Below, in pieces: positions 1 to 12,557 of a DNA stretch of 23,609 nt. Within the stretch, counting starts at the first letter, position 1. Every line of letters starts with the position of its first letter. The notes below the pieces were generated by a model, which searched no databases, had not been told where the DNA came from, and was given only the letters and a program-made list of their open reading frames with translations. The position numbers and the translations under genes are program-made. Source of the stretch: a virus; the IMG/VR virus record IMGVR_UViG_3300044635_001006, positions 1 through 23,609 of that record; one strand, given 5' to 3'.

Positions 1-362
1 GATTTTAAAAAGTTGTGCCGTGCCCACTTTTCACTCTCGGAATCGTTAAACGACTCAAGGAAGTTCGGCCAGCCGCCCATGCTGCGAATCGTCGCGTTAA
101 TGCGTTGATCGCCAAAGTCGATCCACTTGTAAGGGCCGATGGCAACCGCTCGCTGCACGTCGCTCCAAGCCTCTACGGCTCGCGTATCCTCCGCAACGTT
201 GACGCCGGCAAGCTCCCGAAGCTCGGCAGGTCTCGGCATTCGCGGCAATTCGCGGATCGCCCGAAGTACCGCCGTTTGCATTTGCTCTGGCTCAAGATCG
301 ATCATCGCCAAGGAGTAAACTTGCACCATCGCCTCCGTCGGCTCCACTTGGTGGGCCTGCAT
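1..362 (-). CDS. DUF6475-like phage protein, cut by the left window edge
   Basis: The frame is open from an ATG at 362 through the left edge, giving 120 codons without a stop. Segments RPAELRELAGV, AW..V..A, KWIDFGD and GGWPNF, ending in EKWARHNF, match my memory of the DUF6475-type proteins that often follow phage replication initiators. Their role is unknown, though replication is likely from context. The ATG at 362 has AGAGG five bases upstream, and in-frame ATGs at 329 and 305 are less well placed. Using 362 gives a 71-bp overlap with the initiator gene, which is long but not rare in phages. The C-terminus is outside the window. Gene reality is well supported; the family name is from memory. 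Confidence 0.7.
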   Translation of the reverse strand, partial: MQAHQVEPTEAMVQVYSLAMIDLEPEQMQTAVLRAIRELPRMPRPAELRELAGVNVAEDTRAVEAWSDVQRAVAIGPYKWIDFGDQRINATIRSMGGWPNFLESFNDSESEKWARHNFLK

Positions 363-1251
363 CAATCCCTCTAACAGCGTTGTAAAGTGCTTCAAACTTT
401 CCTGACTCTGCGAATTTTTGAAAGACATTTTTTGTGTTTTCCTCGCGGATCTGTGCAAACGTCTTTGGTTGCGGCGGTTTACGATCCGCCGCTGTGGTTC
501 GGTCGCTGTTCAGCCAATCGGCTTGGAAGCCCTCCCATTGGCGTTCGGCCGCGGTTCGAATGGCTTCGTCTGCCGACATGCCAGCCTTAGCCGCTTCGCG
601 TCGGATCCTCACCAGGACTGATTCCGTAACCGGCTTGCGTCGGCACGCGGTCCAGTCTCGCCAATGGTGTTCGGAAATGTCTTCGGGTCGATCGATTGCA
701 ACCGATGGACGCCGTGTTCGCTTTTGAGAAACAGAAACTAGCGGCTCTGCCGCTTCGCTCCTTCCCCGTTCCCCTTCCTGTTCCTGTTCCCTTCCTATTC
801 CCTTCCCTTCCTCTTCCTTTCCCTTCCCTTCCCCACTGGGCGCGTAAGGCACGCGTTCGGCACGCGTGGGGCACGCGTTAACTACGCGTGGAATATCAAC
901 GAAATTGTTGGTTTCCGACGGTTCTGGCAATGTGCTCTGCGCTTCCTTGAAATTAACGACCTGATGCCGTGAAAATCCAGGAACGTATCCATATTCCACG
1001 CCTTCCGACGCGTAACGCACAACAAAACCACGCGTGGCCAACGCGTCAAGCACGCGTGAAAAATCAACGTTATCGTATGGAAGTATCTGTGCTTTGATCG
1101 ATCGCGGTCGCCATTTGAACCGGCCTTCTCGGTCGCAAATCGTCCACAAGCCAATGAACGCCAACCGTACCGGAAGCCCTTCCTTTTCTTCCAAGTCGAA
1201 GAGTTCCTCGTGGGTGAAAAACTCCGGCTTAATTGTTCGTATTCTTCCCAT
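292..1251 (-). CDS. Replication initiator-like protein (lambda O / replisome-organiser type)
   Basis: 319 residues. The N-terminal ~85 residues (GRIRTIKPEFFTHEEL, LPVRLAFIGLW, CDREGRFKWRP, VLDALATRGFVVRY) look like the winged-helix domain of phage replication proteins that recruit the helicase to the origin. A low-complexity Gly/Glu/Lys/Arg linker follows and is encoded by a long purine tract. The C-terminal third is Arg/Trp-rich. The ATG at 1251 has AGG about eight bases upstream; a GTG at 1308 in the same frame would begin inside the leader hairpin and is less likely. A promoter and structured leader precede the gene. Two ACGCGT iteron arrays lie inside it, as the origin lies inside O in lambda. 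Function is inferred from domain resemblance and context. Confidence 0.72.
   Translation of the reverse strand: MGRIRTIKPEFFTHEELFDLEEKEGLPVRLAFIGLWTICDREGRFKWRPRSIKAQILPYDNVDFSRVLDALATRGFVVRYASEGVEYGYVPGFSRHQVVNFKEAQSTLPEPSETNNFVDIPRVVNACPTRAERVPYAPSGEGKGKEEEGKGIGREQEQEGERGRSEAAEPLVSVSQKRTRRPSVAIDRPEDISEHHWRDWTACRRKPVTESVLVRIRREAAKAGMSADEAIRTAAERQWEGFQADWLNSDRTTAADRKPPQPKTFAQIREENTKNVFQKFAESGKFEALYNAVRGIDAGPPSGADGGDGASLLLGDDRS
759..834. repeat. Polypyrimidine/polypurine tract
   Basis: 76 bases on the plus strand contain only four purines (768, 780, 786, 797), with short CCCTTC/CCTTCC units. It encodes the Gly/Glu/Lys/Arg linker of the initiator on the minus strand. Such tracts can form triplex DNA or unwind easily. 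It lies directly beside the first ACGCGT array, so it may be part of the origin, though a simple linker expansion would also explain it. Confidence 0.85.
840..889. repeat. Iteron array 1: ACGCGT every 11 bp
   Basis: ACGCGT begins at 851, 862, 873 and 884, exactly 11 bp apart, and a fifth degenerate copy (GCGCGT) begins at 840, also in register. The usual context is GGCACGCGT. An 11-bp period is not a multiple of three, so codon repetition cannot produce it. It fits proteins bound on one face of the helix, as for iteron-binding replication initiators. Confidence 0.85.
1008..1057. repeat. Iteron array 2: ACGCGT in 11-bp register
   Basis: ACGCGT begins at 1008, 1030, 1041 and 1052, with gaps of 22, 11 and 11 bp, so they share one 11-bp register with one missing position at 1019. 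The spacer between the two arrays (890-1007) contains short A/T-rich patches. I saw only one other ACGCGT in the window, near 11690. Confidence 0.82.
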
Positions 1252-1262
1252 CGATCGACCTG

Positions 1263-1348
1263 AAAAAACCACCGCCCAGCAGCTTGGCCGGCTTGTGGAG
1301 ATTCCCACAGAACGCCGGGCGGTGGCTTGGATTGGTCAGCCGGCCAAG
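1263..1348 (-). promoter_or_regulatory. Initiator leader RNA with interleaved stems and T6 (attenuator or pseudoknot)
   Basis: Reading along the minus strand: A (CTTGGCCGGCT, 1348-1338), 12 nt, B (CCACCGCCC, 1325-1317), 23 nt holding hairpin TGTGG-gaatct-CCACA, C (AGCCGGCCAAG, 1293-1283), 5 nt, D (GGGCGGTGG, 1277-1269), then T6 at 1268-1263. A pairs perfectly with C over 11 bp and B with D over 9 bp, so the stems interleave. B-D plus T6 is an intrinsic-terminator design, and A-C could be the antiterminator or they could coexist as a pseudoknot. The initiator start codon is 12 nt beyond the T run. The pairings are observed and regulation is inferred. Confidence 0.75.
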
Positions 1349-2425: not shown

Positions 2426-3823
2426 TCATACACCTGCCTTTGATTTTAAGAAACTAGGAATCGTCGGAACCGCCGACGCCGATAAACCGACCCTCATCAA
2501 CTCGGCTTGATTGCCAAGTCCGAACTGCCTAACAACTTCCGCCATCGACGCCTGCATCAAGCCGTGATCGGCACCCTTTCGGGCAATGCTCTTTTCGATG
2601 TTCGCATCCGCGTCGCTGCCGATGATATGAACCTTGACCGGTCGCGTTTGGCCAAATCTCCAAGACCTTCGAACGGCCTGATAATACTCTTCAAACGAAA
2701 ACGAAAGCGACGCAAACACTTGCGTATTGCAAACCTGAAAGTTCAGCCCGACGCCAGCGATAGACGGCTTTGTCACCAACACCGGAAACTGCCCTTCGGC
2801 AAATCCTAAGAGTAGATCCTGCTTTTTCTTCTCCGGCATCGACCCGCGAACCTCAACAGCCCCGTCGACATGCTTCATCAGTTCCGAAGATTCGTAATCG
2901 GTGTAACACCAAACGATTGCCGGCCGCTCTGACTCACGCACAATCTCCGCAACTCGCTTAGCTCGCTCGGTGTTGGTCCGCCGCTTTTCTTCGTGGATGT
3001 TCGTCGCCGAAATTCCTTCGACGTCGAATAGAAAGCCATCGGCGACGCCATCATATGCAACGCTAACAATGTGTCGCTCAACGGTCAGTGGTGGCAAGAT
3101 GTAGCCGTCGTCGCTAGCCCCAAGATCGGATGGACGCGAAAGACAAACCGCCCACGAGGTTACCCATCGCCAAAAGTCCTTTTGAGCGTGTTTCTTCAAG
3201 CGGTAGCCGCCTGCTTTCATCGTGTCGTTGATAAACCAACGCGAAAGCATTTCGTTCGACGGCATGACCCCAAGAAAATCGGCGTGGTTGCCCAGCTCTT
3301 TGTGGTCATTGGGCGCCGGTGTCGCTGTGCATGCCAAGCGGTATGGCGTTTCGCGATATGAGTCGATCAACTCTTGCTTGATCTTCCCGGTAAAATTTTT
3401 GAGGATCTGCGATTCGTCAAGCACAACCCCTGACCAAATCGAAGCGTCAAACTTGTGGAGCTTTTCGTAATTGATGAGGTTAATGCCCTCGACAATTTCA
3501 CTCTGCTCATCGACCACGGCAACGGGCGTTTCGATGCCAAACTTTTCGGCCTCTCGCTTTGTTTGGGCTCGAATGCCAACTGGCGTATGAATCACAACCG
3601 GCCGCTTCGATCGCTTGCAAACCGCGTCAGCCCAGGCTAACTGCTGAATCGTTTTCCCTAGGCCAGTATCTTCAAATAAAGCCGCTCGGCCACGCTGTAG
3701 CGACCACTGGACGCATTTGGCCTGCCAGCCCTTTAGGGCCTTCGGAAGCTCGCCAACCGCAACCTCAAAGCCCAGCGGCCTTGCCGATCGCACCTTCGAT
3801 CGGATGAATTCTTCGTAATCCAT
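2426..3823 (-). CDS. SNF2-family DNA helicase/translocase
   Basis: 465 residues. Motif I (Walker A) is DTGLGKT (52-58), motif II DESQ (136-139, SNF2-like variant of DEAH), motif III CTATPAPND (165-173), motif V GVGLNFQ and motif VI QAVRRSWRFGQ (382-392). The QxxRRxxRxGQ form is typical of SNF2-like phage helicases. It hydrolyses ATP and moves along double-stranded DNA, in phages usually for replication or recombination. The ATG at 3823 has only a weak GGTG Shine-Dalgarno. It is preceded by its own promoter and a structured leader ending in T5, so its expression is probably controlled there. The methyltransferase follows immediately. Confidence 0.9.
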   Translation of the reverse strand: MDYEEFIRSKVRSARPLGFEVAVGELPKALKGWQAKCVQWSLQRGRAALFEDTGLGKTIQQLAWADAVCKRSKRPVVIHTPVGIRAQTKREAEKFGIETPVAVVDEQSEIVEGINLINYEKLHKFDASIWSGVVLDESQILKNFTGKIKQELIDSYRETPYRLACTATPAPNDHKELGNHADFLGVMPSNEMLSRWFINDTMKAGGYRLKKHAQKDFWRWVTSWAVCLSRPSDLGASDDGYILPPLTVERHIVSVAYDGVADGFLFDVEGISATNIHEEKRRTNTERAKRVAEIVRESERPAIVWCYTDYESSELMKHVDGAVEVRGSMPEKKKQDLLLGFAEGQFPVLVTKPSIAGVGLNFQVCNTQVFASLSFSFEEYYQAVRRSWRFGQTRPVKVHIIGSDADANIEKSIARKGADHGLMQASMAEVVRQFGLGNQAELMRVGLSASAVPTIPSFLKSKAGV

Positions 3824-3929: not shown

Positions 3930-3957
3930 ATCTTAACGCATTGTCAACCGCTGACAA
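3930..3957 (-). promoter_or_regulatory. Promoter for the helicase leader, overlapping an inverted repeat
   Basis: Minus strand -35 TTGTCA (3957-3952), 16-bp spacer, -10 TAAGAT (3935-3930), which is 5/6 and 4/6 to consensus. The predicted start near 3923 falls just before strand A of the leader. The -35 box is one half of the inverted repeat TTGTCA-N5-TGACAA (3941-3957), a possible operator. Confidence 0.5.
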
Positions 3958-4660
3958 CTGCCAAATCCTCTACCGACTCAAAACCGCAAAGAAAACGCAT
4001 CCAATCGACTTCCCGATTGGACAAGTCAAACCATTCACCACGCACCCGCTTATCTGAAAAAATGCGATGCAAACGAGTCTCGACGTTTTTATGTGCTTGC
4101 TTTGTCGCAATCAGTCGCAGCCTTGGGTCTTCCGCTTGAAGCGTCTTTTCCCTTGCTTGTGGCGAATACGAAAATCCTATTTTTGTTAGTCCGTTTGTGT
4201 GCCTCATCAAATAGACGTATGGAGTTCGCCTATCTGTTCCGCATTGGCTTCTATCAAGCTGACTAGAAAAATAATCGACCTTTGGTTTTAGCGTTATGTC
4301 TTGCTTAATGATCTGTCGACGCAGCTCCGAAATCGTTTGACATGCTGCGTCAATCGCGTTGCCAAATTGCTCAACAGCAAACTCAAAAATCCTGGCCTGA
4401 TTGTTTGTCATGCTAAATTGTTCGCGACTATCGAAATCGATCATCGCTTTGACAATCTCGTGCACTCCGCAATATGGGCCGCTCTTGTATCGCCATCTCC
4501 TGTCAAGCCTCCAGAATTTTCGATCTCCAACGGCGACAACTACGCTGTGGTAGTCGTCGCCGAAATCTACACGCAAATCGTTCTTGATTAGCCTTGTTAG
4601 GTCTTCTGGTAGCTCGGTCATAACCCCAAGACCTGCAAGGCCTCCCTGTAGTCCGCTCAT
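3944..4660 (-). CDS. T5orf172/MUG113-type GIY-YIG-like protein
   Basis: 238 residues. The C-terminal half carries YVYLM (148-152), GLTKIGFS (157-164), a RE.TLQAEDP segment (170-179), E194 in VETRLH and RGEWF (207-211). These are hallmarks of the T5orf172/MUG113 branch of the GIY-YIG superfamily, whose members may nick DNA or act in DNA binding. The N-terminal ~130 residues have no recognisable domain. The start ATG at 4660 overlaps the upstream stop as ATGA. It lies upstream of the helicase, so a nucleic-acid function in replication or anti-host defence is plausible. Family call is good; activity is not established. Confidence 0.75.
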   Translation of the reverse strand: MSGLQGGLAGLGVMTELPEDLTRLIKNDLRVDFGDDYHSVVVAVGDRKFWRLDRRWRYKSGPYCGVHEIVKAMIDFDSREQFSMTNNQARIFEFAVEQFGNAIDAACQTISELRRQIIKQDITLKPKVDYFSSQLDRSQCGTDRRTPYVYLMRHTNGLTKIGFSYSPQAREKTLQAEDPRLRLIATKQAHKNVETRLHRIFSDKRVRGEWFDLSNREVDWMRFLCGFESVEDLAVVSG

Positions 4661-11298: not shown

Positions 11299-11595
11299 TT
11301 AGTTGTCCGGCCACCGAACGCCCAACCGATCGAGCACGTCGGCAAGCTCTGTTGATGTTTGGTCGATCCACGCCTCGGCTGCGAAGTGGATCTCCGACAA
11401 TGCGTGTTGGCATTCGTGGATCAGCGTATCGAGCACTTGCTTTGCCGACTGATCGTATCGCACTAAGATTAGCCTACGATCCCAATAGCAGATTCCTAGA
11501 GCGTTCGGCAGCTTCCTTCGCGTCACAAATTCAATCCGCCATTCCCGGCCGCCGAGAGTGCAATCAATGGCCGGCGGCTTGCGTCGCTTTACCAT
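11299..11595 (-). CDS. Zinc metallopeptidase-like protein (HExxH)
   Basis: 98 residues with HECQH (60-64), the zincin signature, preceded by a helix (AKQVLDTLI) and a beta hairpin (ICYWDRRLILVRYD). This resembles a minimal SprT/WSS-type fold; a third zinc ligand might be E73 or a nearby His. Substrate unknown. It overlaps the phosphoesterase gene by 7 bp, suggesting co-expression. The motif could be structural in a degenerate protein. Confidence 0.68.
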   Translation of the reverse strand: MVKRRKPPAIDCTLGGREWRIEFVTRRKLPNALGICYWDRRLILVRYDQSAKQVLDTLIHECQHALSEIHFAAEAWIDQTSTELADVLDRLGVRWPDN

Positions 11596-12557
11596 ATTTT
11601 GCCCTCATGGATTCTTATGTTTTGTTCTTTCCAATGGCCTCTGCTGTCGAGGTCTAAAATAGCGAAGCCCTGACTCCACTGATTGACCAACGCGTAAGCC
11701 GGTGCCATGTCGCAGAGACAGCCCGTCGAAAAACACACCCAAGTTTTCCGCTTGTCGCCCGATGTTTCGATGTGCGTCGACGCTTGATGAAAGTGCCCCG
11801 CCATCGATGTCTGCCGCGTTCTGAGCCATAGCCCACGGGCCGGATTTACGGCTGCCACAAGCCCTTTCGGTAGCTCGTGGCCGTGATAACAATTGAGCGT
11901 GCCGAGCGTGTAGAGCTGCTTCGACGCGATCATCTGCCACGATGAATCAAGGCCCAATTGATCGGCGAGCACTTTGCATAAATCCCACTTTGACATGCCG
12001 ATCATCTGCGGGGCGTTTTCAAATAAATAGCTTTCGATCCTGTCTTCGTGGTTGCCGATTTTGTAATAGCAGTCGCCCGAGAAGTGCGGCCGAATGTCGG
12101 CAAGCCAACCGGCCAGCGTCTTGATTTCTTCATCGATGCTCCTTGCGTTTGGATCGCGTACCCACTTGCTCTGCTGGTAGGCGTCTAGCATGTCGCCATT
12201 GAGGATGAGGTGATCGCATCGCGACTCGATTCCGTGCCGAATTGCTTCGTCAATCGCTTGTGGGTCGTGATAGGGAAAATGGGCGTCGCTGAGAATCAAA
12301 TAACGCCCTGGCTTGCGAATCGCAATTGTCGGTCGCGTCTTTCGCTTGGCTTTGGGTGCTTTTGGAATGATGGTATTTTCGTCGGCTCGTTTTTTGTTCG
12401 CGTACGTTTCGCCGCGATGGTATCGGATTAAATCGCGAGTCGATTCAAATGCCGTGAAGAGTGCAGGGTAACGTGCGACAAGAAACTTCGCTATTTCCCG
12501 CGTAGGTCGGTCGGGTGCCTCAGAAATGGCGGCCCTGACTATGTCGGCTTTTCGCAT
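11589..12557 (-). CDS. Calcineurin-like metallophosphoesterase with N-terminal helical domain
   Basis: 322 residues. Motifs SDAHFPYHD (90-98), NGDMLDA (120-126), GNHEDR (168-173), HGH (225-227) and GHFH (254-257) are all five blocks of the dimetal phosphoesterase core. The ~50 N-terminal residues (ADIVRAAISEAPDRPTREIA) look like a helix-turn-helix, followed by a basic linker. Related phage proteins act as nucleases, phosphatases or RNA 2',3'-cyclic phosphodiesterases; the substrate here is unknown. The ATG at 12557 has GGAGG five bases upstream. It heads an operon after a strong terminator. Confidence 0.88.
   Translation of the reverse strand: MRKADIVRAAISEAPDRPTREIAKFLVARYPALFTAFESTRDLIRYHRGETYANKKRADENTIIPKAPKAKRKTRPTIAIRKPGRYLILSDAHFPYHDPQAIDEAIRHGIESRCDHLILNGDMLDAYQQSKWVRDPNARSIDEEIKTLAGWLADIRPHFSGDCYYKIGNHEDRIESYLFENAPQMIGMSKWDLCKVLADQLGLDSSWQMIASKQLYTLGTLNCYHGHELPKGLVAAVNPARGLWLRTRQTSMAGHFHQASTHIETSGDKRKTWVCFSTGCLCDMAPAYALVNQWSQGFAILDLDSRGHWKEQNIRIHEGKIW

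Follow-up and report, generated by a model that had tools for sequence, protein, structure and literature searches.

A candidate iteron-type replication origin within the initiator gene of a phage, marked by hexamers at 11-bp spacing

The initiator gene, its neighbours and its predicted fold

The window analysed here is an entire IMG/VR virus record of 23,609 bp, within which no RNA families were detected. Its minus strand carries, at positions 292..1251 (ATG at 1251), a gene encoding a replication initiator of 319 amino acids (P0001), identified by matches to PHROG profiles. The N-terminal part matches phrog_16167 (E 6.6e-46), phrog_1408 (3.7e-27) and phrog_12556 (2.4e-26), the latter two being annotated as 'replication initiation protein', and the C-terminal part matches phrog_678, 'replication initiation O-like'; several initiator profiles thus agree with the putative initiator gene of the preliminary description of this DNA. 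No match to an O-type PHROG was found for residues 1-146, and comparison with Pfam returned zero families at E up to 1, hence neither RepA_N (PF06970) nor Rep_3.

The gene following the initiator (1..425, minus strand) runs off the window and lies at the place of a helicase loader. In a relative (L007, 5827-6513) a complete copy is present, which is DUF6475-like (E 2.3e-5, below the cut-off of Pfam) and also matches a PHROG of unknown function; a DUF6475 gene comes after the initiator in an Endozoicomonas element (L352) as well. Genes annotated as helicase loaders, DnaC-like or DnaB-like proteins were found beside or near the initiator homologues of HK639, Mx8, F10 and a Bordetella phage. On the other side, genes encoding an N6/N4 DNA methyltransferase (1399-2433, beginning 148 bp past the start of the initiator gene), a SNF2-type helicase (2426-3823) and a T5orf172/MUG113 protein (3944-4660) are present, and a metallophosphoesterase gene (11589-12557) is more remote.

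Regarding structure, an AlphaFold2 model confidently predicts a winged-helix N-domain comprising residues 1 to about 95 (967..1251, minus strand), with pLDDT blocks of 89-96 across residues 11-90. A Foldseek search against solved structures gave 732 matches, none of them at E <= 0.001 and none below E 0.03. With VIA-align, the N-domain of DnaD (2v79) aligned with Z 5.7 (rmsd 4.2, 96 residues aligned) and the staphylococcal RepA structures 5kbj, 4pt7 and 4pql with Z 5.6-6.2 (rmsd 3.7-3.9, 92 aligned), scores that are middling and tied with those of Fur, MarR-like proteins and polymerase III subunits; since many winged-helix proteins fall within 1 Z unit, no family is assigned by structure. According to DSSP on the model, a helix of residues 64-73, the third by position, is encoded at 1033..1062 (minus strand), and we infer from the predicted fold that it may be the recognition helix.

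Hexamer arrays and adjoining tracts

Two arrays of the hexamer ACGCGT lie within the initiator gene, both listed on the minus strand. Array A (1008..1057) has copies at 1008, 1030, 1041 and 1052 with the register at 1019 empty, and array B (840..889) has copies at 851, 862, 873 and 884 and a degenerate unit at 840. On the coding strand these are gene positions 195, 206, 217 and 239 for array A and 363, 374, 385 and 396 for array B, with the degenerate unit at 407, and the first sites of the two arrays are separated by 168 bp. Counting in the sequence reproduced exactly all eight positions claimed earlier, and GCGCGT at 840, previously read as an extension of the series, occupies the next 11-bp register with one mismatch. 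Array B and the purine tract described below lie between the N- and C-domains and array A lies within the N-domain, the first three of its coding-strand sites falling in the codons of predicted helix 64-73; this is the internal-origin layout of the lambda O type. The outer flanks of the two arrays are alike (window positions 889-908 and 1057-1076, coding strand CGTTGATWTTYCACGCGT, 168 bp apart), and array B may therefore be a partial copy of array A.

Equal density of ACGCGT elsewhere had been named as an observation that would speak against an origin, and the sole further copy in the window is at 11690. The total of nine is not above the mean of 12.7 in whole-window dinucleotide shuffles, and thus the unusual property is the clustering and phase of the hexamer and not its number. 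Outside the arrays a single copy compares with 12.5 expected under an order-1 model and 5.2 under a maximal-order model; this scarcity is not specific, as TGCGCA is equally scarce (1, expected 12.8). Among all combinations of 6-mer and lag in the window (lags 6-40), ACGCGT at lag 11 is the strongest.

The eight sites of the initiator gene form five lag-11 pairs. The proposed comparison with shuffled codons never reproduced this pattern: 20,000 synonymous permutations gave a mean of 0.98 sites (maximum 6) and at most three lag-11 pairs, and 20,000 shuffles of codon order gave at most four sites and at most one such pair. The cores run across the peptides SRV, DAL and TRG and, in a second set, PRV, NAC, TRA and RVP. 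The cores occupy all three reading frames, so a codon repeat is excluded as the source of the 11-bp period, as the preliminary description had argued.

Directly 3' of array B on the coding strand lies a polypurine tract, (GGGAA/GGAAA)n, at 758..834 (minus strand), which encodes EGKGKEEEGKG... and is a candidate strand-opening element. The adjacent polypyrimidine tract that had been described is thus present, but it is polypurine on the coding strand, as in 61 of 93 representative family genes, and it is not AT-rich as in lambda: an AT-rich tract directly beside the iterons, as in origins of the lambda O type, is absent, the GC content of the tract being 58% in this phage and 0.52 in 61 relatives (0.57 for their genes). 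With a purine-run score of 20 or more as the criterion, runs were detected in 39 of the 41 genes with ACGCGT pairs and in 22 of the 52 without, and a pyrimidine run of equal strength was found in a single gene of the 93. Base repetition within the tract is 0.72 at lag 5 and 0.64 at lag 10, far above the 0.28 at lag 3, and its period is therefore not codon-based. In segments defined by the protein (58 of 93 genes), purine-ending or purine-only codons are favoured, with Gly GGR:GGY at 257:24 inside against 404:543 outside and Arg AGR:CGN at 74:22 inside against 210:1084 outside. A glycine count in purine-defined tracts (257 GGR to 0 GGY) was set aside as circular, the tract itself being defined by purines. 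The exact 26-bp purine pattern was found in nine stretches of viral contigs, several of them from contigs already known.

Of the 93 family genes, 32 have no purine run, and 16 of these show, at the corresponding place, 6-mers such as TGATTC that recur at 7 or 14 bp. In ten loci without a purine tract (L298, L313, L316, L317, L320, L324, L349, L066, L068 and L074) TGATTC/CCTGATTC recurs at 7, 8, 14 or 15 bp; these repeats encode PDSLNLIPDS in the part of the gene where the tract otherwise lies, and are possibly an alternative second origin element.

A second opening candidate, with 32.5% GC, is a modestly AT-rich stretch at 1059..1098 (minus strand), which on the coding strand adjoins the 5' side of array A. 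It is the lowest-GC 40-mer of positions 600-1440 and falls within the lowest 0.8% of the window; in 26 relatives its rank within its own gene has a median of 0.09. GC skew, which had been suggested as a check, was uninformative and leaves the site unmarked, the cumulative skew of the window declining steadily with gene orientation. In a 40-kb stretch of the Bradyrhizobium element (L350) the skew extremes lie at 6.5 and 28 kb and the arrays near 20.2 kb. Single-strand folding of the cassette described below gave an unconvincing z of -1.7.

Conservation, exchange and generality of the 11-bp spacing

A protein search of viral contigs with the initiator returned 59 loci, of which 34 (L006-L012 and L024-L050) carry both arrays. 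The first three sites of array A are at identical gene positions in 33 of these 34, the middle one being absent from L032, and an 11-bp pair of array B is present in all 34 at a distance from array A that varies among loci. The 11-bp phase is thus kept in related phages, a property whose lack had been named as evidence against an origin. Another 12 loci (L013-L023 and L059) have a different N-terminus and an initiator gene free of ACGCGT. The last 13 are more remote and do not show the complete pattern; in several of them pairs are spaced by 10, 12, 21 or 22 bp. When the 34 array-bearing loci were reduced to 15 representatives below 95% identity, codon identity at residues that are the same was 0.95 for eight codons of array A and 0.46 for 80 other codons (p=5e-6, n=15 representatives); the codons of array A are constrained at the DNA level, almost without synonymous change.

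The domain and the arrays are exchanged together. The initiator of L007, identical to that of this phage at a rounded 100%, differs from it by one residue, and blastn of L007 against L015 and L014 showed 83-90% identity as far as a point 64 bp upstream of the ATG; identity of 85-86% resumes at gene position 499, with no blastn similarity between these two points. The exchanged block therefore comprises both arrays together with the winged-helix domain and the tract, and its end lies just past the tract (753..1315, minus strand, converted from L007 coordinates), whereas the C-terminal domain stays. The C-terminal part (292..752, minus strand) is retained on the swap, L013-L023 matching residues 167-315 or less. 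In these swapped-N-terminus relatives, as read in L013, a hexamer repeat of the form CCTNNN comes after G-rich repeats (GGGGTA and TACGAT, frequently with a spacing of 22-23 bp); this is probably another origin type. A HNH-like zinc-finger stretch seems, by eye, to be inserted in the linker of L063 and L348.

Among the best 80 of 443 loci from a protein search of bacterial genomes, 22 have at least two lag-11 ACGCGT pairs, and these include loci of Rhizobium, Mesorhizobium, Gilvimarinus, Rubellimicrobium, Burkholderiales and Acidobacteria. Circular phage-like plasmids of Bradyrhizobium and Endozoicomonas bear the same arrays, and no second annotated replication initiator was found in the 40,390 of 46,622 bases (Bradyrhizobium) and 10,441 of 54,159 bases (Endozoicomonas) covered. 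In 20 bacterial genomes (about 111 Mb) that were picked for holding a relative (20 of the 80 loci), nearly all with arrays, 33 triple arrays were detected, of which 32 fall within the initiator gene and the last lies 186 bp beyond the gene.

A scan of viral contigs for triple ACGCGT with 11-bp spacing, blind to protein and including some contigs identical to those of the protein search, found at least 120 stretches; in 103 of 119 loci examined the array is, among the matches listed, inside a gene of the same N-domain family. Of the 16 other loci four were tested, and each of them matched, among the matches listed, replication-initiation or primosomal PHROGs belonging to different families; as ACGCGT lattices thus occur in initiators with other N-domains, the core by itself does not identify its binder. 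Triple ACGCGT at 10-bp spacing was found in just 15 stretches of viral contigs, 10 of them in the same initiator family, and the control word TGCGCA at 11 bp in 44 viral stretches, none in the ACGCGT initiator family.

The spacing is more general than any one word, with cores that are clade-specific. In a motif-free test, repeated 5-mers were counted per lag against synonymous shuffles in 93 representatives of 126 genes (sharing less than 85% identity in their first 330 nt, their ancestry still shared; L055, with an unrecognised start, was omitted from the gene set). Lag 11 was significant in 61 of the 93, compared with 4, 2, 5, 1, 2 and 2 genes at lags 8, 9, 10, 12, 13 and 16, and 19, 10 and 7 genes at lags 7, 14 and 15. 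The 41 genes with an ACGCGT pair were partly chosen for lag 11, and therefore the other 52 are the cleaner sample; among these lag 11 was significant in 26, with words including GCACC, AGCAC, ACCGG, GGAAG and CTCAC.

A sister initiator family (PHROG 2509/9474; MxWIKVRTHL...), to which the TGCGCA control pointed, was represented by eight loci in a protein search. Three of these have TGCGCA at gene positions 50, 61 and 72 and at 329, 340, 351 and 362, and the other five have TCCGCA at 39, 50 and 61 and at 329, 340 and 351, some also at 362, so that the word is swapped from TGCGCA to TCCGCA at six or seven places, in both arrays and in concert, as would be expected if one co-evolving protein reads all sites. 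The palindromic 6-bp core emphasised in the preliminary description does apply to ACGCGT in this phage, but palindromy is not essential to the design, since members of the sister family carry TCCGCA, which is no palindrome, on an identical lattice. In sister-family loci L257, L262-L269, L219 and L254 two arrays lie about 279 bp apart, mostly with a purine-rich tract behind the second.

The locus as a probable replication origin

Taken together, the locus is best regarded, with a probability of roughly 0.8, as a phage replication origin of the iteron type embedded in its own initiator gene. The origin interpretation offered earlier gains support at the level of sequence from the initiator PHROGs, the conserved phase, the synonymous constraint and the exchange of the arrays with the N-domain; binding by the initiator and firing of replication at the arrays we infer. 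The best reading, drawn by analogy, is that this origin would work like lambda ori, SPP1 oriL and pSK41 ori.

The origins of lambda O, SPP1 gp38 and pSK41 Rep lie within their own initiator genes. The lambda ori in gene O (lambdoid and Stx phages) is alike in its mid-gene iterons and in a strand-asymmetric tract on the 3' side, the lambda record having an 18-nt all-purine run behind the iterons on the coding strand, and a helicase loader follows the initiator gene in lambda; here the next gene is DUF6475-like, below cut-off. Lambda differs in having four 18-bp iterons that start 20-24 bp apart, compared with 6-bp cores every 11 bp, and an AT-rich tract, where the tract of the present family consists of G and A and has about 52% GC; unlike lambda, this phage has a second array within the DNA-binding domain. 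In SPP1, oriL consists of direct repeats in gene 38 that are bound by its own product, the replisome organizer G38P, with gp39 as loader and gp40 as helicase (PMC6316719); the placement of repeats inside the initiator gene is shared, but in SPP1 there is also another origin, oriR, and the unwinding element is AT-rich.

In RepA_N plasmids (pSK41, pTZ2162) a DnaD-like winged-helix N-domain binds mid-gene boxes of its own gene, the linker is encoded by the origin, and in pPR9 the N-terminal domain and origin were swapped as a block of about 500 bp (PMC5703833); the cassette swap observed here resembles this exchange. The boxes of RepA_N plasmids are described as semi-palindromic repeats around a poly-A tract (PMC7145576), which differs from the arrangement here, and the present initiator has no RepA_N Pfam match. 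For oriC, with DnaA boxes and DnaA-trios, and for plasmid iterons with the repeats of the unwinding element, a strand-specific repeat of short period is described as coming after the double-strand sites (PMC10797057), an order also seen here; unlike in DnaA-trios, the repeat is of 5 bp (GGGAA/GGAAA), half G and within the coding region, and its single-strand binding is putative. A literature search largely confined to papers outside subscription found no account of 11-bp hexamer lattices in phage initiator genes. Three features appear to be new: what is conserved is a one-turn lattice of short words; in two initiator families one array falls within codons of the N-terminal domain; and most relatives share a purine tract that mixes G and A, with a repeat of 5 bp, where an AT-rich element is usual.

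In the proposed mechanism, each turn of the DNA would present one hexamer to the winged-helix N-domain; protomers would thereby be aligned on one face of the DNA along arrays A and B, and those on both arrays would assemble an O-some-like complex. The duplex would open beside the arrays, either in the purine tract on the 3' side of array B or in the AT-rich stretch on the 5' side of array A, and the C-terminal domain, which presumably recruits the helicase loader, would together with the downstream loader bring the host DnaB helicase. Once single-stranded, the purine tract could be a strand bound by the initiator that aids opening; alternatively, the purine-rich transcript that the gene itself yields could aid opening by forming an R-loop.

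It is unlikely that the arrays are instead sites at which the encoded protein regulates its own gene or mediates DNA partition, with the origin elsewhere. Operators or a centromere would likewise co-segregate with the domain and the tract and show synonymous constraint; however, the gene matches initiator families and not partition or repressor families, the sites lie mid-gene, about 200-400 nt past the start rather than at a promoter, and the intragenic origins noted above for lambda O, SPP1 gp38 and pSK41 Rep provide precedents for an origin in this position. Binding of ACGCGT at each 11 bp by a host protein rather than the phage initiator would accommodate the ACGCGT lattices of several initiator families, but is very unlikely given that triple arrays in the 20 bacterial genomes are confined to the initiator gene or 186 bp beyond, that array-bearing hosts span Alpha-, Beta- and Gammaproteobacteria and Acidobacteria, and that clade-specific cores on the same lattice and the concerted TGCGCA/TCCGCA change point to a co-evolving phage factor.

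The methyltransferase gene 148 bp beyond the initiator start raises the question of whether the arrays are targets of this enzyme, serving as a methylation or sequestration signal, and the L073 stretch carries two methyltransferases. This appears highly improbable, since methylation by itself requires no 11-bp phase, and, among the relatives with a lag-11 ACGCGT pair whose annotated surroundings were covered, no methyltransferase is listed by the initiator in VvAW1 or in the elements of Bradyrhizobium and Endozoicomonas, though many of their neighbouring genes are hypothetical. As for selection on the protein or chance, conservation does extend to the peptides that the arrays encode (SRVLDALTTRG; DACPTRE), but the protein-preserving shuffles, the synonymous conservation and the motif-free lag test against synonymous shuffles leave such an explanation a negligible likelihood.

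Beyond this phage, a joint reading can be put forward tentatively, and with some doubt: many phage initiators of several families may carry a clade-specific hexamer at 11-bp intervals (each helical turn taking one protomer) within the sequence coding for the linker, and sometimes within that for the DNA-binding domain too, followed by a 5- or 7-bp strand-asymmetric element that would replace the AT-rich unwinding element and be read single-stranded like DnaA-trios, with domain, lattice and second element forming one exchangeable specificity cassette. If this were true, origins and their cognate initiators would be predictable from sequence alone, because the three would travel together.

In most phages known only as sequence, origins have not been located, and a motif-free 11-bp lattice with an adjacent purine tract could place the origin and read the recognition sequence of the initiator in many phages at once. 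Core changes on a fixed lattice (TGCGCA to TCCGCA) would provide natural matched pairs of protein and site for DNA recognition by winged-helix domains, and a conserved G/A tract in place of the AT-rich element raises the testable question of how such origins open.

In a further locus (L218, 2979-3767), ten TGCGCA in unbroken 11-bp phase open a stop-to-stop open frame.
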